DNA of 64,000 nucleotides from Phlebopus portentosus. Lineage: Eukaryota > Basidiomycota > Agaricomycetes > Boletales > Boletinellaceae. The stretch lies in contig JAYXKI010000012.1 in NCBI GenBank assembly GCA_037892935.1, positions 1,426,001-1,490,000 of the forward strand, read 5' to 3'. Positions 1-55,518 of this stretch are shown one piece after another (positions within the stretch are counted from its first letter, which is position 1; each line of letters starts with the position of its first letter). Both the position numbers and the translations under genes were made by a program. Under the pieces are notes generated by a model. It saw only the letters and a program-made list of their open reading frames with translations, searched no databases and was not told where the DNA came from.

Positions 1-3000
1 TCTCCGCGAATAACTTGGCCCTTTCCTCACGGAGAGCAGACTGGACAAATGTCGCTGACAATCAAAATTTAGTACACTCACCAAAGCAGCCTCGTAATCG
101 CAGGCACTCTTCGCCACTTTGCTCAATTCGGCTAGTAACTCCGCCGATGTCTCTTTCTCCTGGACGGCAACCGCCAGTTGTGTTCTCAACGACTCCACCT
201 CGACATTTGAATCCGATGGTGTCGCCGCTGCGGCTACCTGATTGGCGAGGCGTTCCTTTTCGTCGGACAGGCCCTTGACTTGCCTTCGCAGCTCAGTGAC
301 AGTCTCTTTCAACTTGAAAATATAATGATTCAGTTGCCCGGATCGGTCGCGAGGTTCCTGCCCTAGAGACGAGTATTTCGTTCGGAAGTCGGCGAGTGTA
401 TAACCTGCGTGTCCTCAAACTGTAAGATCAATTGGGCAGCGATGCGTCTGTTCAGAGAGTGTGCCAAACATACAAGTTTAGTCCGTGCATCCTTCTCGGT
501 AGTATAAGCAGCCTTCTCTTCTTCGGCCTTACAGAGATCAATCTGTAAGTCTTCGATCTCGTCTTTGAGAGCTTGGACGTCGTTCGGGCCAATACGATCG
601 TACTAATCGTTATCAATAAGCCTTCAAGTATAAATACTTTAAATACGGATCAGTTCACTTGCCTTCATAAGAAGCTGAGCATTCCGTTCCTTCCATTGAC
701 GGCCCTCGGTTTCAAGCCGTTGAATCTGAGCATTCTTGGCATCAAGCTCAACACGAATAGTCTTTGCGTCTTCTTTGCGTCTTCAATTCCGATTGGGGGC
801 GATTGAGCGTCGTCTCAAGCTGGCGTGCTTTGCGAACCTGTGCTTCACACTCTGCACGAAGCGTCGCGTTGCTTTCACGGAGAATGTTGAGCTGGTCAAT
901 CCTATCCAGCAGTTCGGCATGCTCAGCAGAATTACTGATAGCTTCGCCGCTTCTTCACGCTCCTGCTGGATGAATTACAATGCATGGCAAGGATAAGCAG
1001 AACGGTACAGACTTACATGACAGTGCCGTCCGTGTTTCTTCAAGAACCTGGCTGAGATGGTCAACCTATGTCTTTTGCCGTGCGTTCTCCTGCTTAAAGA
1101 GCTCCAGTTGAAGATCAACAATTTCCTCTCCGCCATACGTCCATCCACATCATCACCGCCACCCGACTCTGGCACGTTCATGTTTGAATACGCAGCTTGA
1201 CGTATACGAGAAGTTGTGAGCTGACGGACTCCAGGTGCTGGTGAAGCAGACTATTCGTGCCACAAGGTCTTTGCGACTGTATTCTCGCTTAGAGATCTAT
1301 GAAGATGTGAACGAAGAGCTGTGTTTACCAAGCTGTGAGATCTGCAATCTCCTTATAAAGAACTTCTTGCTGTTGGTTCCAAGTTCGCCTGAGCAGTCTC
1401 AGCTTGAATCGTCTTCTCACGTAAGAAGCCCGCGCCTCACTGAGCTCCTTCTTGAAAGCGTCTACGACCTCGATCGACTCGGCATGAGCGACAATTCGCG
1501 AGAATATTTCTCTTCAGCAGCCTTTATACAGAGATTAGGTTCATTGATGCTCTTGACATCATAATGGACCCGCCTTGGCATGTTGCATCTGCTCTCGTAT
1601 CTCGTTCTCATGAAATGATTGACCGGTGCGTGATCCCATCTCAGCGTTGGTGATATCAATAACCGTGCCCTCCAGCATCTTTCTGTCCTGAGCGAACACT
1701 TCATGTTCCTTTTCGAGTCTTTGCAGGAAATCGCCGTTCTGCGTACTTAGTCGAGTGATTTCATCCTGCACAGATGATAGTTTCTCCTCAAGCACCTCCG
1801 TTCGGCCTAGATATGATGAAGATCAGCAATCTGAGCTTCGGTCGACGCCTCATACTCATCATGCGTGGCAGACAGTCATTGCAGAGCAGCTTCACTAGCC
1901 TGGAACTGCTACACATGACCGCGTGCAGAGGCAAGATCAGCTTCGGCGACATTCATTGCAGCCCTAAGAGGTACCAAGAAAGTCAATGACCAGTGAATAC
2001 AAAAATACGGTCAAACTTACCGGAGTACGGCAACTTCAACCTTGAGTTCCTGCTCTGAGCCGTCCTCGCCGGCGGGTGGACGTGAAGTGTCAGTACGTCG
2101 CTCATGAATGGCAATCCTTTCAGCATTCATCTGCACCTGCTTAACAAGCTCATCCACCGGTTCTCGTAGGTGTTTCCGACTTGTCTCAGCCTCAACAAGA
2201 GACTCTCTGGCCCTTGGCAAGTTCTCCACCTACCATAGTATTCAGTGACATAGAAGACATTTTCAGAAGAATCTGACTTACGGAGTGATCAATCTTAGTT
2301 CGCAGTTCCTGAGCTTCGATATCCTTCTGCAATTAAATTTGTCGAGCTGTGTCACGCTCGCGGGAAAGCTGAGTTCGAAGATCCTGACTAGAGCATTCAA
2401 AATTGAGTGCTACTACGCCAAAGCAAACGCTATATAGAGGAGCACTTACGCTTTGGCTCTCCAGGTCATGGAATTGGGACTCAAATCTTCCAAATCTTCT
2501 CATCACTTCCGTTCGCCTTGTCAATGTCATTGTCCGTTTTCTGAACCTTGACAATCAAGTCCGTCATGCCAGACCGCTCTAGAGACAGAACCTTGTTCTC
2601 ATCAATTAGTCGAGTCTGCACATTCTATATCTCCAGTTAATATGAATCACAAGACGAGCTAACTAACGGATACGCACCTCCCGGATCTTCTTTTCGCACA
2701 AAAATTGGCGCATTCGTTCTGCAATCGCTCGATCTGGGTATCAGCAGAGGCTAAACCCTCGGCAGCATAGTTGCATACGATATCCAGACGTGTGTACTGA
2801 TCGTGCGATTGTTGGTTTCGTTTCCGAAGATTTTGAGCTTCTCGCTCCTGCAGGATATTCCCGAGCCATGCGATGCCGCTCTGACCCAAATGGTGAGCTT
2901 GACCCGATGAGAACAAAAAGAGAATAAACTCACTCAATCCTCGCGTTAGCCTTCGAGCGCCACACTCGACTGGCTGGATTCATGATGGTACTGAAGAACC

Positions 3001-11412: not shown

Positions 11413-11816
11413 CTACCTCTGGCTCACACCCGATTCCGTTGTCGTCGAGCGCTCGCCTGTGACGTGTCCCCTGAAGTATATCTTCGAAGGACGACATCGA
11501 ACGAAACCCGGTTCCTACCGTGCAGACAACAAACCCCTATCTTGCCCGTCGAAGTCCGATTGACTCCGACGTGACCCGATAGTACCCGAAGTATCAACCA
11601 ATCACATCACCGTGGCGCTCCAAATCACCCTTCTCTGGAACTCCCATCAAACCTTCTCGTGGGTAACGCATAGAGTCCAGTCGTCGACAAGTATCTCCTT
11701 CATTATCTACCTTGGAGCCTTTCGTTTAGTCATCAATTTCAAAGACGAGCCGGTTATCCGAAGTCGGTCCCGCCCGAACAGCATCCCGATCCCCGTTCCA
11801 CCCCCAGCCTATCAAG

Positions 11817-13262
11817 GTGGAGCTAACTGACGAGCAACGAGCGGCCCTCCCTGCGAACTCTAGGTGGAGCGCCTCGCGAGGACATTATATCGTCAGAGCA
11901 GGAAATCAAGTCTTCGGCGCCTGGTGGGACGAGACTGCCAAGAGGTGGTACTCCCAGAGGGAAGGAAGGTCCATCCACTGGAGAGTGAAACAAGAAGACG
12001 ACGTAGACGAGCCCTCACCTCCTACTCCGACGCAACCAACGGCCCCCTTACCAGAACTATCGGGTTCGACCACTCAAGCGTTGGCCCCCACTGTCGAGCC
12101 TTCTCCGGCATTTGGAAAGTTCCGAGAACCAGCGCCGCTTATACCGAGCGAAGAAGACGAAGAAGAAGAAGAAGAACACGAGATGTCATTGTCAAAGGAA
12201 GCGATGACTGATCTCGCAACGGCTGTCGCACTAGCGCTCCAAGCTGCAGGCGAAGGTGCGAACCAAGGATCAAAGGTGTCGAAGAAGGTCCACGTCGCCA
12301 AACCAAGAGACTTTGATGGTGAACACGATTATGTGGACTTCAAGCGAGAGCTGCGCCTCTACATCTACGCATCCGAGTCAGAGTTCAGGACGAACAAGAG
12401 TAAGATTATGTTCGCCCTGTCGTACATGAAGAGTGGTGCGGCGGCTCGCTGGGCAGAGAGTTACACCAGTGGAGCAGTCGATGCAGATGGCAACCTGATG
12501 TTCACGGACGCCTGGGACGCCTTCTTAAAGAAGCTGGACACTTCGTTCGACGACCCCGCCAGGTCTCAGAAAGCTTTCGAACGACTAGATGCAATGTACC
12601 AAGGAGACCTCAACGCCGACGAGTTTTTCAACAAGTTTGACATTTGTCGAGTGGATGCTGGCCTAGCAACAGAGGCACATGACGAATGGTTGATGAGTTG
12701 CCTGAAGAGGGCGCTAAACCCGAAGGTTGTGGAAGGGGTCATGAGATTGCCCAATGAACCAACGTCGTATGAAGAGTTCAAGAAAGCCGCCGTCAAGGTC
12801 GACAGGGTCGAACGCCAAATCAGGGATCTGATGGCCGAACATCGGCGGAAGGCGACAAACTCAACTATGACGAAGCCGGCTCCAGTACCACCACTGCGAC
12901 GCCCAGTGCCGCCTCAACAAGCAGCTCGTCCCTTTGTGCCCCCCGCCCAAGATCGTCGTGATGCAACGGGAGTGACATATGGAGGCTTAGGACAGCCAAT
13001 GGACGTAATGATGAACCAGGCGCGTCGTACACGTGCTTGTTACAAGTGTGGTCAGGTGGGCCACTACATCAGGGAATGCCCGCGAGGCCGTGAAGCGATA
13101 CGTGCCATCATCGCAGCCTTTGTTCCAGAAGACAGAGAAGCGCTCCTCGAAGAACTCGGTCAAGCGAAGGAATCCTCCTTCGAAGAGGTTGAGGTCCGGG
13201 CAGTGCCCACTGAGCTGGAAGAGTTAGTGGACGGTGAGGGTTTTCCAGCAGACCAGGCGTAG
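11817..13262 (+). CDS. gag: gypsy Gag with CCHC zinc knuckle
   Basis: The frame is open from 11730 to the TAG at 13260-13262. No ATG occurs upstream of the conserved-looking LTDEQRAALPANSRWSASRG segment; 11817 is a GTG and the first in-frame ATG is near 12183 (MSLSKEAMTDLATAVALAL). The true start is therefore uncertain (non-AUG, a spliced leader, or a lost ATG). The capsid region (KKVHVAKPRDFDGEHDYVDF and what follows) resembles the Retrotrans_gag domain. The nucleocapsid knuckle CYKCGQVGHYIRECP binds RNA. The product coats the element's RNA in virus-like particles. The frame overlaps pol by about 24 nt. Confidence 0.9.
   Translation: MELTDEQRAALPANSRWSASRGHYIVRAGNQVFGAWWDETAKRWYSQREGRSIHWRVKQEDDVDEPSPPTPTQPTAPLPELSGSTTQALAPTVEPSPAFGKFREPAPLIPSEEDEEEEEEHEMSLSKEAMTDLATAVALALQAAGEGANQGSKVSKKVHVAKPRDFDGEHDYVDFKRELRLYIYASESEFRTNKSKIMFALSYMKSGAAARWAESYTSGAVDADGNLMFTDAWDAFLKKLDTSFDDPARSQKAFERLDAMYQGDLNADEFFNKFDICRVDAGLATEAHDEWLMSCLKRALNPKVVEGVMRLPNEPTSYEEFKKAAVKVDRVERQIRDLMAEHRRKATNSTMTKPAPVPPLRRPVPPQQAARPFVPPAQDRRDATGVTYGGLGQPMDVMMNQARRTRACYKCGQVGHYIRECPRGREAIRAIIAAFVPEDREALLEELGQAKESSFEEVEVRAVPTELEELVDGEGFPADQA
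13238..13244 (+). promoter_or_regulatory. candidate -1 ribosomal frameshift site GGGTTTT
   Basis: In the gag frame the bases read G GGT TTT, an X XXY YYZ heptamer. The pol frame (-1) first opens here, right after a TGA at 13235-13237, and gag stops at 13260. A -1 slip at this heptamer fuses Gag to pol. Confidence 0.7.
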
Positions 13263-16200
13263 ACGTCGGAACGACTGGTCGGTCTCCTAAAGGACTCTTT
13301 TCGTTGGACTCGTTAAAATATAATCGTCCTGTTGTACAATATCAAGATGCGAATACCAGTGACGGTTTCATCCTTCGAAAGATCCTTACCGACGTACTGC
13401 CAGATGAATCTGAAGATGACAACGATGACTTCGAAGTCTATGAAGATTTATTTGTTAGAAGAACAGATGCGCAAGCAGGCGAATTGAGAGAGGAAGAGCG
13501 GAATCAAACCGCTATAAAAAATGAGGTTGTGGCGGAAGCACCTTACCGCGAGAACGTTGTTGCTCAGGCGAACGTCACTGAAGCAGTGTGGGATGTAGTA
13601 GGCAGACGCGCGGCTGAGGTATGGCGCGAGGGCATTGCGGACGCAGATCAGTTCGTGCGACGGGCGGGAGGAAAGGAGTTAGACGCCTTTGTTAGCATCG
13701 TACACCCAAAGGTAGCAGGTGATGACGAAGTAGACTTGTCGAACCCCCTACTCGAAGAGGAAAACTTCATTGATGCTCATGCACTGATCGACTCAGGGTG
13801 CACGGGCTCATGCATCGACGAAGGTTTTGTCAAACGGTATGGTTTCCCCACCCAAAGGTACATTCGGCCTAGACCAGTCTTCAATGCTGACGGGACAAGC
13901 AACGAGGCTGGATTGATCAAGGAATATGTAGTCGTACGAATGTTCTTTGGGAAACACGAGGAAGAGATTCGACTGGCAGTGACATCCTTAGCGTCAAGCA
14001 ACATCTTCCTCGGACATGACTGGTTGACGAAGCATAATCCTGAGATTGATTGGAGGTTAGGAACAGTTAAGTTCACCCGTTGCCCTGATGAATGTGAGTC
14101 GCCACTGTCGAGCGAGGAGATAGATGAAGAGTTTGTGAGGAATGTGCGGATGAAGGAAGCGGCAAGATGGCCACCTTACCTGGAGGAATACGCCGACGTC
14201 TTTAGTGAGGAATCGTTCGAATGCTTACCAAACCACCGAACGTGGGACCACGCTATTGACCTGAAACCGGATTTCAAACCCAGCGACTGCAAGGTTTACC
14301 CGTTATCGCCAAAAGAACAAGAAGCGATGAGGGAGTTCATTGAGGAAAACCTAGCATCAGGACGTATCCGACAGTCGAAGTCTCCAATGGCGTCACCATT
14401 CTTCTTTATCAAGAAAGAGGATGGGAGCTTACGAGCAATCCAAGACTATCGAAAGCTCAATGAAGGAACGGTCAAGAACAAATACCCGTTGCCACTGATA
14501 AATGAGCTCATCGACAAGGTTAAGGATGCAAGGTACATCACGAAGCTCGACGTTCGTTGGGGATACTACAACATCCGGATTCGCGAGGGAGACGAGTGGA
14601 AGGCAGCGTTCCGGACAAATCTAGGCTTATTCGAACCCACAGTCATGTTCTTCGGCTTGTGTAATGCGCCAGCGACGTTCCAAGGCTTTATGAATGACAT
14701 CTTTTGGGAGCTAATTCATGAGGGTATCGTCATCATTTACCTTGATGACATTCTCATCTTCTCGAATGACCTAGAAGAACACCGCAGATGCACCAAACGA
14801 GTCTTTGAGATCCTTCGCCAAAACGGACTTTTCCTAAAGCCGCAGAAGTGCGAGTTCGAAGTTGATACAGTCAAGTACCTCGGGCACATTATTGGCAATG
14901 GCGAAGTTCGAATGGATCCCAAGAAGACGGCGGCAGTACAGGACTGGCCAGTTCCAAGGAACGTCCACGAACTGCAACAATTCCTGGGATTAGGAAATTG
15001 GTTGCGACGTTTTGTTAAGGATTACAGTTCGGTCGTCAAACCCTTGACTACCCTAACGGGTAAGGTGGAATGGAAATGGGGCGAAGATGAGCAGGCAGCG
15101 TTCGAGGAATTGAAGCGTCGTTTGAGTAGTCCTCCCGTGTTAGCGATACCCAACAACGAGGACCCTTTCCGTGTAGAAGCAGATGCGTCGGACTTTGCGA
15201 CTGGTGGAGTCCTTCTCCAGAAACAAGACGGTAAATGGAAGGTGATCGCTTATCGGTCGTCAACATTCCTAGAGGCAGAGCGAAACTATGAGATTTACGA
15301 CAAGGAAATGCTCGCCATCGTTCAAGCCCTAAAGGAATGGCGACAATATCTCCAGGGAGCTAACCAACCTTTTGAGGTATGGACAGACCATGCAAATCTA
15401 ACGTACTTCCGATCGCCGCAGAAGTTAAATCGTCGACAAGCTCATTGGCGACTCGATTTAGCCGAGTTCGATTTCACGCTAGTCCATAAACCCGGAAAGA
15501 CGTTGGGAAAAGCTGATCTGTTGTCACGCCGGGCGGATTATGACAAGGGCGAGCGCGATAATGAAAATGTGATTTTCATCAAGAAGGAATGGCTGGTTAG
15601 AGGAATGGTTCAGACGTCAAGAGAAGTACTCGTTGAAAAGGTCGTGGAAGCGCAGAAACAAGAGGATGAGGGAGTGAGGCCGAAGGACGTCGAGAAGAGA
15701 GGTGACATGTAGAGAAAGGGCCACCGACTATATGTACCAGCGAGCATCAGAGAGGACGTCATGAAGGAACACCATGACTCGACCCTGGCAGGACATCCGG
15801 GAGCAACAAAGACGATCCAGCTGATAGCACACAGGTACTGGTGGCCGAGGATGAGTGCAGATGTGCGGGTGTACGTGCGGGGGTGTGATCGTTGTCAGCG
15901 GACGAAGGCTCTAAGGACAACGAGAGCAAAGGTTTTGCACCCTAATGAGGTGCCGGAGGCGCCATGGCAGATTGTCACGGTCGACCTAATCGGAGAGTTG
16001 CCAGAATCGAATGGGTTCAATGCGATTTGCGTAGTGGTCGACCGCTTTAGCAAACAGATCCATGCAATTCCAACAACAACAAAGTTAACGGCGGAAGGCA
16101 TGGCTAGGATCTACAGAGACCACGTCTTCCGATTACATGGACTACCACGGAAGATCATTCATGACCGAGGGGTGCAATTCGACGCAAAGATGATGAAGGA

Positions 16201-17128
16201 GTTGTACAAGCTCCTCCACATTGAAGGCAACCCATCGACAGCGTATCACCCACAAACTGACGGACAGACAGAGCGGGTTAATCAGGAACTAGAACAATAC
16301 CTGCGGCTATACGTCAACCATCGGCAGTCGGACTGGGCGGACTGGCTAGCTCTCGCAGAATTCGCATACAACAATCGTGAACATTCAGCGACGAAGCTAT
16401 CTCCCTTCTTCGTCAATACAGGAATGCACCCCTTAGACTTCACGGGGGTTGGAACGGCATCATCGAACCTGTCAGCAGAAGAATTTGCCAAACATGTCAA
16501 GGAGGTGCACGAACTCGCTCAAGGTAACCTAACCCAAGCAAACGAAGACATGAAGCGTTTCTACGACCGCCATGCTGGGAAGTCCATTACCTATGAGGCA
16601 GGACAGAAAGTCTTCTTAGATGGATGAAATATCAAGACGATCCGACCGATGAAGAAGATGGATGATAAATGGTTCGGTCCCTTCGAGGTAGTGGAAAAGG
16701 TTGGCGCAAGCGCATACAGACTCAAACTACCGAAGACCTGGAAGAAGGTCCATCCAGTTTTCAACGAGATCTTGCTCAAACCAGCCGTCCAACCGTCCTT
16801 CGAATCGCAGAAGAAACCACCTCTACCACCGCCAGTGATCATTGATGAGCAGAAAGAGTACGAGGTTGAAGAAATACTCGACTCGCGTCTGCATCGAGGC
16901 AAACTCCAATTCCTGGTCAAGTGGGTTGGATATGAGGAAGCGACTTGGCAGCCAGAATCCGACGTCAAGGATAATGCGCAGGAGTCAATTCAAGAATTCT
17001 ACCGCAAACATCCTGGAGCTCCAAGGAAGTTAACGATACCTCGACAAAGCCTGCGAGCGCTGTACAAGTTCACGTCCTCAGAAGGCTTATCTGGTTGGTC
17101 GGGACGCCCAACCTTGAAGGGGGGGTGA
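13238..17128 (+). CDS. pol: gypsy Pol: protease, RT, RNase H, integrase, chromodomain (two in-frame stops)
   Basis: The frame runs from the gag overlap to the TGA at 17126-17128. Domains in order: aspartic protease (ALIDSGCTGSCID, about 13782-13820), reverse transcriptase (KLDVRWGYYN and YLDDILIFS at about 14740-14765), RNase H (VEADASDFATGG), and integrase with an HHCC finger (HHDST...GCDRCQRTKA) and D,D,E residues (VDLIGELPE, HDRGVQFD, GQTERVNQELE). A C-terminal chromodomain follows (YEVEEILDSRLHRGKLQFLVKW with bases 16860-16925, then TWQPESD), which in this group targets integration through histone marks. TAG at 15710-15712, between RNase H and integrase, and TGA at 16625-16627, after integrase, both lie in frame and would truncate the protein. 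Confidence 0.93.
17116..17125 (+). promoter_or_regulatory. polypurine tract
   Basis: GAAGGGGGGG lies three bases before the 3' LTR, separated only by the pol TGA codon. It is the expected plus-strand primer. Confidence 0.85.
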
Positions 17129-39060: not shown

Positions 39061-39204
39061 AGTGACGAGTGTCAGACGAACTTAGATGCATTTTGACGTG
39101 TCGTCCTCTTTGTCTCTTGCCACCACTAGTACTGTCATGCCACTCTATCCACCCCCAGCACCTACAAATCATCTCCGTCCCTGCTTCATCCACCTCATTC
39201 ATGA

Positions 39205-41160
<1,956 letters not shown>

Positions 41161-48321: not shown

Positions 48322-48324
48322 ACA
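48322..48324 (+). repeat. TSD ACA, left copy, of TIR element E1
   Basis: ACA at 48322-48324 and at 55289-55291 flank element E1. Confidence 0.6.
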
Positions 48325-49040
48325 TACAGCAGGCAAAAACTAGTTTTGGCAGTGCTGCAATAACGGTTGAAAGTAGGAATGAAATTAATAATTGCATCAA
48401 TGATTGTGTCAGGGTTGTGACTTATTATGGCAATGTGCCTCTCGACTTTGTTGAGACAATAAATTGTGTAACCAGTTGCGAAAGGGGTTTCAACCCATCT
48501 GAGATTACAAATAGCAATGTGTTTGTCACAGAAAGGGAAATTTGAAATCTCGGCAAGGTCACGATTTGTTATGTCACACACAATTTCCCTCTTTGTGAGA
48601 TTTCAAATGTCACAACTGACGTAATTAGTAATTTCGCTACTGGTTGCACTCAGGTGAGCGATCAGTGGCTGCTCAGCAGGCCGTTCAGCGGGCAATCACT
48701 GCATTTGGTGGGTGATCTGTGGGCGATCCATGGGCTGTTCAGTGGGCGATCAGTGTGAGTGAGCGGGCAATGAGTGGAAAGAATTTTATTATATATAATC
48801 TCATCTCAACTTCTTTCATCGACGGTCATTTTTGTGCTAGGTATTTCCTTTGCCCTTCGCTGTCTTCTCTTCTATTTGCCGTTCGCGTTCGCATTGCATT
48901 GATCATCACATTCACTCCGTATGCCCATTTTATGTTGTGGAATTCGTACAAGCTACATATTGTTATTACATTTATGATTATGACAGTGAGGGTTGATATA
49001 ATAAATAGAGTGCGTGGTGATACAGCTGAGTTCGTGGCAA

Positions 49041-51240
49041 TCAATCTTCATATTGCATGAGCTGAGAGAGAAACTCTTTGTTAGTTTTGCGAGTGGTACG
49101 ATAGAAAGTCACTTACGTCTAATGTTAAGGAGCTAGAGTTATTCACCTCCTGATCACGGTAGATACCTACCAATGAGTTACCTCCTCCGCACAGAGAATT
49201 CTTCAAGCTAACGACCACAAACTGGAACTCGCCAGACGCTCGAGAACGGATGTAATTAGCGACCTTGGCGACATTCATATTGGCGAGTGCTGCATCAACC
49301 TCATCAAGAACAAAGAAAGATATACCTGTGAATAGCGAAAAGCAATGCGAGAGCAGCGACGGTCTTCTCTCCTCCCGGGAGCTGCTCCATATCTCTAAAT
49401 CGCTTCATCGTAGGCTTCGTATGGTATTTGATGCCAGCAGCAAATGATTCCTGCATGAAAAGCTTAGCAAATATCTCTTTCTGATACAAAACTTATCGAC
49501 TAACCCCACTGTCTTCCAGGCTCAGATACGCAACACTACCCATTGGCGCAGCCTTCCCTTTCGTAAGGTCTTTGTAGATCTGGTCAATGCACTCCGAAAT
49601 ATGAGTGAAAGCTTTGTTGAAAAGATCGCATCTGCAGAATCAGGTCATCATAAGCAAGATTAAGCTTCGCCACGTCACAATATTTACCTTCGCTTTCTCA
49701 TTTCGTTAAATTCGTCTCGAGCGCGTTTCGATTCTTTGCGGGCTTTCTCAGCCTCTTTCTCCGTGTCCAGCAGCTTGGTTTGAACATCGTCCAGTCTACA
49801 TCCGGATGTTAATGAATGTTCTTAATAAAGAACCAGATTTATCTGACCTCTCCATCACCTTCATGTTCGGTGCCATGCGCTCAATCTCTGTATTAAGCTT
49901 GGTGATGGACGAATCATACGTTGATCCCATCTCTGCTGATCCATCCTGAACGATTTCCGTCAGTGTCACTGTTCATACACGAAAAGGACTTGACAGTACT
50001 GACTTCTCGCTTCTCGTCGTCCAGTAAGTCAAACTCGACCTCAATACCGTAATCAGGGACACGTCGAGGCCTCTGTGTACCGTCTTCGTCGTCAATGTCC
50101 ATTGCCACCTCTTCTCGAAGATTCTGCATTGAAGTGAGTGACATAAAGCAGTGAGAACTGATTGTACGATGGGAAATCGAGCTAAAGCTCACCTCTTCAA
50201 TCGGAACGTTCTTTAAGCTGCATGATCTGAGAGGAAGTTTGATCCCTTCCAACCGACACCTTCGATAGATGGACAATCTTTCCAGAGCAAGTTTTTCAAT
50301 CTCATCATTCTATATCCACATGATTAGATGATGTTATAGGAAACGGATGCTTATTCAATTTCCTTTAGGGCATGGTCAAGGACTTTTGACGCTCTAGCGG
50401 TGTTCTTCTTGACGGCATCAAGTTCCTTCGTCTTAGTCTCTAAAACCTCGTTGAGTTCCTTGAGCTCCTCTTGAAGCTCGAGGATAGACCCTTGAAGTTG
50501 ATCAATTTCTTCCTGGTCTGCTTGCTTTTCGGCTTCATGCTTCTTAATAGCTGCACGCTCGGTATTTATAGCGGTGTCAAGCATTGCAAGGCGCTCCTGC
50601 AGCGTTGCCAGTTGCTATTCCTCGAATTGCGATCTGGGGGCGTTGCTCAATGCGTCTGATCTTCACGGCGAACTGTAAAAAAAAGGAACTTACTGATGGG
50701 TAAGACGTGCAATTTGTGTATCGAAACGCCTACGGGCTGCGGCCTCCTTGCTCGCGGCTTTCAGCTGCCGCAATTCGTATTCCCGAATGTTTTCCACGCC
50801 GATTTGTGCACAGAATCGTGCGAATATTCCATTCTCCTCTTCGTTGACGACTGCTGACAGAACTTCTATCCTTTCGACCAGAGCAGCGTGATTCGCTTTG
50901 GCCTGTAAATTCTGTTTCAATACCTCCAAAATGGCATTGTGTCACAAGGCGCGAACCTGCTTCAATTCTGGCGTCTACTTTTTCATTTCGCTCTTGATGT
51001 GTTGCAGCTCATCCTGCTTGCCTTTAAGACTTGAGGTTAAAGCAGCCTGTGATATAAATAGTCACTCCTTAGTACCCTGACAAAAGAGCCGACTTAAGCA
51101 TACCAAGTCATCTTTCGCTAGAGTCAGGGACGATTCTATGCGTGTGATCTCGGCCACTAGATTCTCATCTGCTGTACTTCGTGGCCTTGATTTGTTCAGG
51201 TCGCGCAGTTGCTTAATGTTGCGGACCATTAAAGTAAGCA
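49041..51240 (-). pseudogene. SMC1: cohesin SMC1 C-terminal half inside element E1
   Basis: Minus strand, introns retained. It starts at NIKQLRDLNKSRPRSTADEN (about 51230) and reads through coiled coil (AKANHAALVERIEVLSAVV; FARFCAQIGVENIREYELRQ; LDTAINTERAAIKKHEAEKQ), the acidic linker [38 protein letters not shown], a C-motif changed to LPGGEK (family LSGGEK), Walker [12 protein letters not shown], and ends LMQYED with TGA at 49043-49041. A deletion around 49318 removes the intron and SYQPS codons before Walker B and shifts the frame. SMC1's N-terminal half (Walker A, hinge) is absent. Confidence 0.9.
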
Positions 51241-51657
51241 GGGACAATGAAAGAAGACAGGGTGGAGGATGATGGTGGTAAGAAGACAAGAAGTTGACGC
51301 ATCCCACCCATCGCCCGCTCACTCACACTGATCGCCCACTGAACAGCCCACTGCACAGATCGCCCGCAGATCACCCACCAAATGCAGTGATCGCCCGCTG
51401 AACGGCCCGCTGAGCAGCCACTGATCGCTCACCCGAGTGCAACTGGTAGCAAAATTACTAATTGCGTCAGTTGTGACATTTGAAATCTCACAAAGAGGGA
51501 AATCGTGTGTGACATAATAAATCGCGACCTTGCCGAGATTTCAAATTTCCCTTTCTGTGGCAAACACGTTACTATTTGTAATCTCAGATGGGTCGAAACC
51601 CCTTTCGCAACTGGTTACGCAATTTATTGTCTCAACAAAGTCGAGAGGCACGTTGCC

Positions 51658-51660
51658 ATA
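51658..51660 (+). repeat. TSD ATA, left copy, of element E2
   Basis: ATA precedes E2 and recurs at 55185-55187. The uninterrupted sequence is seen in the mirror arm of E1. Confidence 0.8.
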
Positions 51661-54600
51661 CACAGCAGGCAAAGGTCGGTTTCGGCAGGGCCGCGATAAC
51701 GAGCGAAAGTAGAAACGAAATTAATAATTGCGCCAATGATTGCGGCAGGGTCGTGACTTATTAATGCAACGTGCCTGTCGGCTTTGTTGAGACAATAAAT
51801 TGCATAATTGATTGCAAAAGGGGTTTCGACCTATCTGAGATTACAAATTGCAACATGTTTGCCACAGAAAGGGAAAATTTGAAGTTGCGTCACGGTGGCA
51901 ATTTATTAAGTCACTCGCGATTTCCCCCTTTGTGAGATTTCAAATGTCACACTTGACGCGATTTGTAATTTCGCCACCGGGTGGGCGATCAGTGGGCGAT
52001 CAGCGGGTGATCAGCGGGCCGTTCACTGCATTCAGTGGGCGATCAGCGGGACATTCAGTGGGCGATCTGCAGGTGATCTGCGGGTGATCACTGGGCGATC
52101 AATGTGGCGGGCGATGAACGGGCGGAAAGAAATTTATTACATATAATCTCATCTCAACTTCTTTCATTGCTGGTAATTTTAGTGCTAGTTGTTTCCTTTG
52201 TTCTATGCTGTCTTCTCTTCTATTTGCTGTTCACGTTCGCATTGCATTGATCATCACATTTACTCCGTATGCCCATTTTATGTTGTGGAATTCGTACAAG
52301 CTACATATTGTTATTACATTTATGATTATGACAGCAAGGGTTGATAGAATAAATAGAGTGTGCGGTGATTCAGCAGAGTTCACGGCAATCAGTCATCATA
52401 TTGTGTGAGCTGAAAGAGAAATTCCCCATTAATTTTGCGAGTGGTATGATAAAAAGTCACTTACGTCTAATGTTAAGGAGCTGGAACTGTTCACTTCCTG
52501 ATCACGGTAGATACCTACCAACGAGTTGCCTCGTTCGTACAGGGAATTCTTCAAACTAATGACTATAAACTGGAACTCGCCAGACGCCCGGGAACGGATG
52601 TAATTAGCGATCTTGGCGACATTCGTATTGTCGAGTGCTGCATCAACCTCATCAAGAACGAAGAAAGGGACTGGTTGATAACTAGAGTGACGGGTGAAAA
52701 GAGTGTAAGGAAAAGTTCGTGAGAACAATGAAGAAAGGGATACCTGTGAATAGCGAAAAGCAATGCGAGAGCAGCGACAGTCTTCTCTCCTCCCGAGAGC
52801 TGCTCCATATCTCTAAATCGCTTCATCGGAGGCATCGCATGGTACTTAATGCCAGCAGCAAACGGTTCCTGCGTGCAAAGCTTAGCAAATAACTTCTTCT
52901 GATACAAAATTCATCGACTAACCTCGTTGTCTTCCAGGCTCAGATAAGCAACACCGCCCATTGGCGCAGCCTTCCCTTTCGTAAGGTCTTTGTAGATTTG
53001 ATCAATGCGCTCCGAAATATGAGTGAAAGCTTTGTTGAAAAGATCGCATCTGCAGAAGACAAGTCATTATAAACAAGATTGAGCTTCACCACGTTACAAT
53101 ATTTACCTTCGCTTTCTTATATCATTAAATTCGTCCCGAGCGCGTTTCGACTCTTTGCGGACTTTCTCAGCCGCTTTCTCCGTGTCCAGCAGCTTGGTTT
53201 GAACATCGTCCAGTCTACATCCGGACGTTCGTGAATGTCCTTAATTAAGAACTAGATTTACCTGACCTCTCCATTGCCTTCATGTTCGGTGCCATGCGCT
53301 CGATCTCTGTATTAAGCTTGGTGATAGACGAATCGTACGTTGATCCCATCTCTGCTGATCCATCCTGAACGACTTTCGTCGGACATTGTTCATACATGAA
53401 AAGGACTTGACTGTACATACTTCTCGCTCCTCGTCGTCCAGTAAGTCAAACTCCACCTCAATACCGTAATCAGGGACGCGTCGAGGCCTCTGTGTACCGT
53501 CTTCGTCATCAATGTCCATTGTCACCTCTTCTCGAAGATTCTGCATCGAAGTGAGTGACAGAAAGCAATGAGAACTGATTGTACGACGGGAAATCGAGCC
53601 AAAACTCACCTCTTCAATTGGAACGTTCTTTAAGCTGCCTGATCCGAGACGAAGTTTAATCTCTTCCAACCGACACTTTCGAGAGATAGACGATCTCTCC
53701 AGAGCAAGTTTTTCAATCTCGTCATTCTAGATCCATATGATTAGACGATGTTATAGGGAACGCATGCTTATTCCAACCTTCGAAGCAATTTCCTTTAGAG
53801 CATGGTCAAGGACTTTTGACGCTCTAGCGGTGTTCTTCTTGACGGTATCAAGTTCCTTCGTCTTAGTCTCTAAAACCTCGTTGAGTTCCTTGAGCTCCTC
53901 TTGAAGCTCGAGGATAGACTCCTGAAGCTGATCAATTTCTTCCTGGACTGCTTGCTTTTCGGCTTCATGCTTCTTAATAGCTGCGCGCTCGGCATTTATA
54001 GCGGTGTCAAGCATTGCAAGGCGCTCTTGCAGCGTTGCCAGTTGCTGTTCCTCGAATTGCGACCTGAGGGCGTCACTCAGTACGTCCGATCTTCACGGCA
54101 AACTATAAAAAAAAGGAAACTTACTGATGGGTAAGACGTGCAGTTTGTGTCTCGAAACGCCTACGAGCCGCAGCCTCCTCACTCGCGGCTTTCAGCTGCC
54201 GCGATTCGTATTCCCGAATGTTTTCCACGCCAATTTGTGCGCAGAATCGTGCGAATATTTCATCCTCCGCTTTGTTGACGACTGTGGACAAAGCTTCTAT
54301 CCTTTCGACCAGAGCAGCGTGATTCGCTTTGGCCTGTAAATTCTGTTTCAATACTTTCAAAATGGCATTGTGTCACAAGGCGCGAACCTACTTCAATTCC
54401 GGCGTCTTCTTTTTCATTTCGCTCTTGATGTGTCGCAGCTCATCCTGCTTGCCTTTAAGACTTGAGGTCAAAGCAGCCTGGGGAATTGGAGGTCACCCCT
54501 CAGTACCCTGACAAAGGAGCCAACGTTAAGCATACCAAGTCATCTTTTACTAGAGTCAGGGATGATTCTATGCGTGTGATCTCGACCACTAGGTTCTCAT

Positions 54601-55184
54601 CTGCTTTACTTCATGGCCTTGATCTGTTAAGGTCGTGCAGTTGCCTAATGTTACGAGTCGTTAAAGTAAGCAGGGACGGTGAAGGAAGACAGGATGGAGG
54701 ATGACGGTGGCAAGAAGACAAGAAATTGATGCGTCCCATCGCCCGCAGATCGCCCACTGAATGTGGTGATCGCCTGCTGATCACCCACTGAACGGACCGC
54801 TGATCGCCCACTGGATGCGGTGATCGCCCGCGGAACGACCCGCTGATCGCCCACTGATCGCCCACCCGGTGGCGAAATTACAAATCGCGTCAAGTGTGAC
54901 ATTTGAAATCTCACAAAGGGGGAAATCGCGAGTGACTTAATAAATTGCCACCGTGACGCAACTTCAAATTTCCCTTTCCGTGGCAAACATGTTGCAATTT
55001 GTAATCTCAGATAGGTCGAAACCCCTTTTGCAATCAATTACGCAATTTATTGTCTCAACAAAGCCGACAGGCACGTTGCATCAATAAGTCACAACCCTGC
55101 CGCAATCATTGACGCAATTATTAATTTCGTTTCTACTTTCGCTCGTTATCGCGGCCCTGCCGAAACCGACCTTTGCCTGCTGTG
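51661..55184. mobile_element. TIR element E2 carrying an SMC1 fragment, inserted in the right TIR of E1
   Basis: 3,524 bp. Both ends read CACAGCAGGCAAAGGTCGGT (inverted), and the arms are almost identical for about 340 bp before diverging in the GGGCGATCAG minisatellite (about 51975-52110 and 54735-54865). It is flanked by ATA (51658-51660 and 55185-55187). Removing E2 and one ATA rebuilds the E1 TIR reading GCCATAATAAGTCAC, exactly the reverse complement of E1's left arm. Non-autonomous: no transposase. Confidence 0.88.
52389..54660 (-). pseudogene. SMC1: cohesin SMC1 C-terminal half inside element E2, nearly intact exons
   Basis: Starts at NIRQLHDLNRSRP (about 54650) and ends LTQYDD with TGA at 52391-52389, the native SMC1 terminus. 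Nine or so GT-AG introns are intact, and exon joins give continuous SMC1 sequence: [108 protein letters not shown]. The ABC signature LSGGEK and Walker B are preserved. Two nonsense codons (TGA 54613-54611; TAG 54390-54388) correspond to CGA and CAG in the E1 copy. Without the N-terminal ATPase half it cannot act as SMC1, though a C-terminal head fragment could in principle be made. Confidence 0.92.
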
Positions 55185-55518
55185 ATAATAAGTCACGACG
55201 CTGACGCAATCATTGACGCGATTATTAATTTCATTCCTACTTTCGACCGTTATCGCAGCACTGCCGAAACCGGTTTTTGCCCGCTGTGACAATACCATTG
55301 CCGACCACCACCACCAATATGCGTTCCAGAGTTCCTCAGTCAATCTGTTCCAGCAATATACCCGCCTTATCACTCGCCGTCCCCCGCGCCGGCTTTCGGG
55401 ATACATCTACGGTGACCTTGTAGCGCTCTCGTATCGATCGGCTTGCTGATGTCTACGAGAGGTGGCCCGAATTGTATGTAAGCTCTTGCGCTGCGCAGTA
55501 CGGGTATGTGATGATCTA

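Follow-up and report, generated by a model that had tools for sequence, protein, structure and literature searches.

The 64,000-nucleotide stretch of contig JAYXKI010000012.1 analysed here (the window) contains two nested elements with terminal inverted repeats (TIRs), E1 and E2, each of which encloses the 3' half of the cohesin gene SMC1. E1 and E2 are very probably non-autonomous EnSpm/CACTA transposons that transduplicated part of SMC1, and mobilization in trans, with the SMC1 segment travelling as a passenger, is with similarly high confidence the best overall explanation of the evidence below. In outline, an EnSpm/CACTA-type element in a wood-decay mushroom host near or in Sanghuangporus would have had its interior replaced by one SMC1 segment, running from mid-exon to ~240-255 bp past the stop codon, and would then have been mobilized by a transposase supplied in trans, putatively by a Transposase_21 gene on contig C2. 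This single capture would have given rise to two subfamilies, E1 and E2, the former of which would later have spread by block duplication. Part of the E1 cargo would have been overwritten by, or exchanged with, native SMC1 (the mosaic is observed, the direction presumed), and the copies would be decaying through stop codons and C-to-T changes, largely at CpG.

Structure and copies of the nested elements

E2 occupies positions 51661-55184 (3,524 bp), with CACAG...CTGTG ends, and is flanked by an ATA target site duplication (TSD; 51658-51660 and 55185-55187). It is located in the right arm of E1, which comprises 48325-51660 and 55188-55288 and is flanked by ACA (48322-48324, the same flank being found at 10/10 E1 loci, and 55289-55291). 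From left to right, E1 consists of a left TIR with subterminal repeats (48325-48785, plus strand), the minus-strand cargo of SMC1 3' half and downstream DNA (48786-51212, native stop at 49041-49043), a right subterminal region and inner right arm ending at the E2 insertion (51213-51660, plus strand), and the outer end of the right arm (55188-55288, plus strand). E2 likewise consists of a left TIR with subterminal repeats (51661-52133, plus strand), a minus-strand cargo corresponding to SMC1 residues 671-1212 (52134-54644, native stop at 52389-52391), and a right subterminal region and TIR (54645-55184, plus strand), which overlaps a minus-strand open reading frame (ORF) at 54651-55037. Arm-to-arm identity is 92.8% in E2 and 92.3% in E1, each over 457 columns. 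Both elements contain termini and SMC1 cargo only, and stop-to-stop ORFs over the pair do not exceed 148 amino acids.

Direct reading bears out, to the base, the nesting, coordinates and TSDs given in the initial annotation of this DNA. The CACAG ends that it assigned to both elements hold for E2 but not for the left end of the window E1, which reads TACAG; among E1 copies that lack E2, this end is CACAG in L022-L025 and TACAG in L027. These same five copies match the E1 sequence reconstructed in that annotation by deleting E2 and one ATA, at 98.8-99.1% along its whole length (3,436-3,437 bp); ATA is single in all five, and they serve as the empty site of E2.

The parent gene is retained in the genome as a complete, TIR-free SMC1 gene on C7 (L021), encoding 1,212 amino acids in a splice model that was built by script and by hand, not from RNA, and that is 27 residues shorter than the Sanghuangporus baumii protein. 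The missing residues fall at three places, all ahead of the cargo. In Pfam, SMC_N is matched by the first and last exons of the native gene, and one coiled-coil exon is unrecognized; in PDB searches the head exon has SMC1 structures as its top matches (6yuf, E 4e-28), and one coiled-coil exon gives no match. The captured segment corresponds to L021:3200-5692, starts mid-exon at residue 671, and keeps the introns, the native stop and ~240-255 bp of downstream DNA. The hinge lies at residues 528-644 in the S. baumii protein, and the cargo therefore begins after the hinge, so that the segment described earlier for each element, from after the hinge to the native stop with introns kept, is recovered from residue 671 onward in both. 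A functional SMC1 has an N-terminal head with Walker A, a hinge and a C-terminal head together; the cargo has neither the N-terminal head nor the hinge. The nearest full-length SMC1 proteins among the matches listed are those of S. baumii and S. vaninii (93%), Fomitiporia (85%), Coniferiporia (80%) and Schizopora (72%), so that protein similarity would place the host close to or in Sanghuangporus (Hymenochaetaceae).

Copies were sought throughout the 38.4-Mb genome (23 contigs) with a 341-bp probe taken mid-cargo, which copies without that part would escape. Of the 22 matches, 20 represent element copies; the other two are a fragment of a split copy and native SMC1 on C7. The element copies are five nested E2, five nested E1, five E1 without E2, and five further E2-type copies (on C4, C6 and C15, and two on C8). 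Comparison of the probe matches with the element map places all the extra SMC1 copies (20/20) inside TIR elements, and none was found outside them with this probe. In a genome-wide search for members of the family, a 28-base terminal pattern with up to three mismatches gave 61 matches, against 0 for a reversed control; by position, 39 of these bound SMC1 elements, two bound an interval on C2, four form two pairs, and 16 are other ends. The picture that would have undone the proposal, of all other TIR copies lacking SMC1 and of SMC1 copies made by plain duplication without TSDs, is contradicted by these 39 ends and by matching flanking repeats at seven independent sites. The two pairs, at C1:1872920-1873148 and C5:2006797-2007025, have their ends 229 bp apart and resemble, by position only, miniature inverted-repeat transposable elements. 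The interval C8:1556614-1578220 (L032, L019) holds an SMC1 element split by an ~18-kb insert that includes gypsy-like retrotransposon sequence.

All ten E1 loci share the flanks of the window copy, with 98.9-100% identity over 275-280 bp on the left and 99.9-100% over 700 bp on the right in 9/9 other loci, and the ten E1 copies therefore represent one insertion multiplied by block duplication. Nine of them lie within ~150 kb of a contig end, the exception being at C12:803k. E2 is present inside E1 at five of the ten loci, the other five providing its empty site, whereas each of the E2-type copies elsewhere stands in a flanking context unrelated to these. At seven SMC1 sites the ends are bordered by matching repeats (ATA, ACA, TAT, CAA, CAT and CAA, and the 4-bp AATG of L026), which, together with the unrelated flanks, indicates seven independent insertions. 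The SMC1 fragment thus moves with the TIRs, as proposed from the window; the two separate insertions seen there are indeed distinct events, but they are two of seven, and E1 contributes one insertion despite its ten copies. Ordinary tandem or segmental duplication of SMC1, with the inverted repeats incidental, would account for an E1 locus that is truly present, flanks included, ten times. It is contradicted by the TSDs on both elements and the empty sites of E2, which already refute it, by the five further copies with unrelated flanks and matching 3-4 bp repeats, and by the confinement of the probed SMC1 copies to TIR elements, and is exceedingly improbable.

Family affiliation and candidate transposase

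Fungal EnSpm elements are described, in PMC12730594, as having 5'-CAC..GTG-3' termini and 3-bp TSDs. The copies with both ends have the same termini, with the exception of the E1 left end, which reads TAC at 6/10 E1 loci, and an exact 3-bp TSD is present at 6/7 SMC1 sites and around the C2 interval. These features, together with a Transposase_21 match in that same-ended interval, support the CACTA/CMC affinity first suggested by the ends and TSDs of the window pair. E1 and E2 also have the composition of Pack-TYPE (Pack-CACTA) elements, being TIR elements with a host-gene fragment and no transposase; genome searches with PF02992, PF18758 and PF18759, in which short ORFs were not scanned singly, gave no match in the window.

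The candidate autonomous relative is a 29.7-kb interval at C2:2575957-2605672 (L030, L029), with 200-bp ends 98% like those of E2 and AAG on both sides, which was read except for its middle 19.5 kb. Within it, a PF02992 (Transposase_21) match with one in-frame TGA lies at C2:2589834-2590253 (E 2.8e-11, above the cut-off), and two long ORFs near its left end (418 and 350 amino acids) have no Pfam match. The Transposase_21 gene likely belongs to this same-ended element, and the suggested search for an autonomous relative is to that extent answered: a same-ended, TSD-flanked interval with a transposase match exists, and the gene's membership of it is likely rather than certain. The right 540 bp of E2, including ~100 bp that are not TIR, is common to L028, L029, L031 and L033, which also have ~2 kb of interior DNA in common and no SMC1; among such units, the C2 interval is one with both ends. 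Two ORFs of L028 match C2H2 zinc fingers above the cut-off, and the one ORF tried in L029 falls below it. Relatives of the 418-residue ORF were noted at three other loci, two of them ~9 kb from another Transposase_21 match. Plavaka and KDZ transposases were considered as partners and rejected, as neither gives a match inside a two-ended interval (single-end extents are undefined); the nearest inward KDZ match is 32 kb from the end at C11:1599052.

Fragments of another host gene were also seen near ends of this TIR family. L038:21-2438, inward of a right end, contains CSE1/exportin-2 fragments (PF08506 in 4/5 ORFs tested), and L031:13-992, likewise inward of a right end, contains a CSE1/exportin-2 fragment by DNA similarity to L038, with no PF08506 match in the one ORF tested. 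Only right ends were seen at L038 and L031, and CSE1 is a candidate case of capture by the family.

Divergence, decay and origin of the SMC1 cargo

The relation of the E1 cargo to native SMC1 changes abruptly along its length. In alignment columns 600-2250, E1 (L022) departs from the native gene at 24/1,617 positions (1.5%), with one to four differences in each 150-column window of mixed exons and introns, but in columns 2250-3000 they differ at 64/661 (9.7%); E2 differs from the native gene by 3-11% per window throughout. So sharp a step inside a single captured segment suggests that native SMC1 and E1 underwent gene conversion or recombination. The native gene was presumably the donor, because invariant sites in the mosaic stretch are not changed unusually often in host SMC1 (5/259, versus 7/261 and 4/258 in the two Sanghuangporus proteins), though the counts are small. 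The captured half of native SMC1 was tested for excess changes and for loss of CpG, both with a negative result, with a CpG observed/expected ratio of 1.14 in that half and 1.12 in the other. E1 and E2 have identical chimeric junctions, including the adjoining element bases, with little or no microhomology and, at the left one, apparently a short filler; this identity argues for a single capture. Separate captures of SMC1 by E1 and E2 would agree with an E1 cargo far closer to host SMC1 than that of E2 over part of its length, and with an E1-E2 divergence that is greater towards the termini than within the cargo. Against this stand the two shared junctions and the restriction of E1's closeness to one side of the sharp step, which make separate captures very unlikely.

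Several observations sit awkwardly with a single EnSpm/CACTA transduplication followed by passenger decay. Native-E2 divergence at codon positions 1+2, at 2.6%, is one quarter of the 10.5% seen in introns and too low for a long-neutral fragment; past constraint would fit, as would an origin of the captured gene in another species. L022 E1 and the window E2 diverge by 16.7% and 20.0% in their terminal regions, by 12.2% across cargo introns and by 8.2% over the downstream piece. Even rates after a single capture would not predict this difference, behind which faster arm decay or cargo exchange may lie. The flanking repeat of L026 is 4 bp long, and L017 is without its last 84 bp at one end. The in-frame TGA of the C2 transposase match and the unread middle of its interval mean that this gene may be dead or may come from a nested element.

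Transduplication with a passenger cargo nevertheless remains the best account. Stops at residues 682 and 737 are common to 6/6 E2-type sequences examined. From residue 738 to the stop the frame is open, with intact splice sites, in the window E2 (at the sites tested), L017 and L018, but not in L019, L020 or L026. In E1, one splice acceptor is lost together with 13 coding bases through a 71-column deletion, and a donor with nine coding bases through a second one; both deletions and a stop at codon 731 occur in the E1-type sequences examined (n=3), the window copy having one more premature stop (814-815 region). When six E2-type copies are each compared with their majority sequence, C-to-T changes at CpG account for 23/36, 22/38, 32/54, 36/53 and 146/195 of all differences in five of them, and for 3/13 in the window E2. 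The cargo of L020 (C8:1506735-1511344), an element that also has an ~1.1-kb insert in one arm, is the extreme case: most of its CpG sites are gone through C>T change, and its CpG observed/expected ratio is 0.36, compared with 1.01-1.07 for three further E2-type cargoes that were measured. Summed over E2-type pairs (n=5, non-independent), codon positions 1+2 differ at 105/5,372 sites and introns at 73/3,031, a ratio of ~0.8, with individual pairs mixed, from 0.007 versus 0.003 to 0.010 versus 0.029. Taken with the native-E2 values, the simplest reading of this divergence pattern would be a sequence that spent a long time as a gene before a short time as a passenger.

A cargo function was weighed in two forms. 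The E2-type TIR-SMC1 chimera, a putative coiled coil plus C-terminal ATPase half, might disturb or aid cohesin, and this would suit the three of six E2-type sequences that are open with intact splice sites from 738 to the stop, the low native divergence at codon positions 1+2, and two annotated S. sanghuang chimeras of 600 and 513 amino acids. It is an unlikely reading, given the two early stops in all six E2-type sequences, the broken E1 cargo and the ratio of ~0.8 among E2-type pairs, while the annotated gene models may step round stops. Alternatively, the cargo might be a putative source of small RNAs silencing SMC1 or its relatives, as could be imagined from the many copies, the long inverted arms, and a CpG-biased decay suggesting that the host methylates or mutates the copies; since SMC1 lies in the loop rather than in the arms, and the captured half of the native gene is not depleted in CpG, this is less probable still. 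The cargo is most likely a passenger, although a long open frame persists in some E2-type copies and such copies are annotated in S. sanghuang as chimeric SMC1 genes.

The chimeras in question come from an assembly other than the window's. In S. sanghuang SMC1_3 (600 amino acids), the N-terminal 83 residues agree at 80/83 with the translation of E2's right end and are followed by cargo; the matching residues are the final 83 of the window ORF 54651-55037. In SMC1_1 (513 amino acids), a 30-residue N-terminal piece of the same TIR-derived sequence matches at 23/30. SMC1_1 and SMC1_3 are thus TIR-SMC1 chimeras, and the genes so named are transposon cargo, which calls for caution in annotation. 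S. vaninii has a 365-amino-acid SMC1_3 fragment with no visible TIR sequence, and a search of all proteins with the TIR-derived N-terminus returned the query itself alone among 78 candidates.

The species comparison used the majority E2-type cargo protein of four copies. This differs from S. vaninii SMC1 at 8/340 and 0/135 residues in two regions, and from host SMC1 at 18/340 and 2/135. At sites where exactly one of the three is odd, E2 goes with S. vaninii at 16 and with the host at four (14 versus 4 in the first region, binomial 0.03); the same test with S. baumii is reversed, E2 going with S. baumii at 12 and with the host at 20. This comparison, made on proteins, suggests that the E2 cargo may derive from an S. 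vaninii-like gene, but the same resemblance could also arise from lineage sorting or from a conversion event in S. vaninii itself. It is possible, if doubtful, that the SMC1 element was assembled in an S. vaninii-like lineage and entered by hybridization or horizontal transfer, its cargo then recombining with the resident SMC1. If so, the element would be a two-way channel for cohesin-gene variation, with chimeric TIR-SMC1 genes as a by-product.

Comparison with known systems and other window features

Housekeeping-gene capture by a fungal DNA transposon, termed transduplication, is known for histone H3 in hAT elements, and in Pseudocercospora fijiensis the histone H3 copies were inactivated by C>T-type mutation (repeat-induced point mutation, RIP), the original being kept, according to PMC3538342 and PMC6710886. 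As described there, the hAT/histone H3 case resembles E1/E2 in that a fungal housekeeping gene was captured and multiplied by a DNA transposon. It differs in its 8-bp TSD, its H3 coding sequence and its CpA context, in contrast to EnSpm termini, an SMC1 3' half with introns, and CpG in the present case. The plant Pack-CACTA/Pack-TYPE elements of PMC8903248 share with E1/E2 CACTA termini, absence of transposase, host-gene fragments and movement in trans; the Pack-CACTA set given there is from plants, whereas the present elements are fungal, with one cargo in the SMC1 subfamilies. Fungal EnSpm elements carrying TET/JBP have, according to PMC12730594, the same termini, 3-bp TSDs and a captured gene, but their cargo is a TET/JBP dioxygenase rather than an SMC1 fragment. 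A Tet_JBP search of the present genome gave no match, but controls were equally silent, so that absence is not proven.

The initial annotation regarded a mobile family carrying a cohesin ATPase head as undescribed. The kind of event is known from hAT/histone H3, while none of the papers listed from the open-access literature searched deals with capture of SMC1 or with Sanghuangporus SMC1, and the claim stands for SMC1 within that literature. The present case extends transduplication of fungal housekeeping genes from hAT/histone H3 to EnSpm/CACTA and a cohesin ATPase gene in a basidiomycete, and a single assembly here holds the parent gene together with empty sites and an interval that has the same ends and a transposase match. 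The SMC1 cargo is unusual, and the mosaic and the cross-species resemblance are uncommon by-observations; the E1 mosaic is a direct case of apparent sequence exchange between an essential gene and its copy on a transposon, which makes feedback of cargo on its parent gene testable.

Elsewhere in the window, HSP70 gene fragments lie at 39086-40930 (plus strand), with PF00012 in three ORFs, and no TIRs were found around them. They are apparently interrupted near 40368-40641 by an ~270-bp dispersed repeat, which has at least 36 partial matches including the window's own (40/49 candidates scored). A region of L028 that matches many loci was considered as HSP70 cargo and rejected, being this same ~270-bp repeat, which sits between the window HSP70 fragments. 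Long ORFs at 11730-16624 (plus strand) resemble, by eye, a gypsy-type retrotransposon polyprotein.

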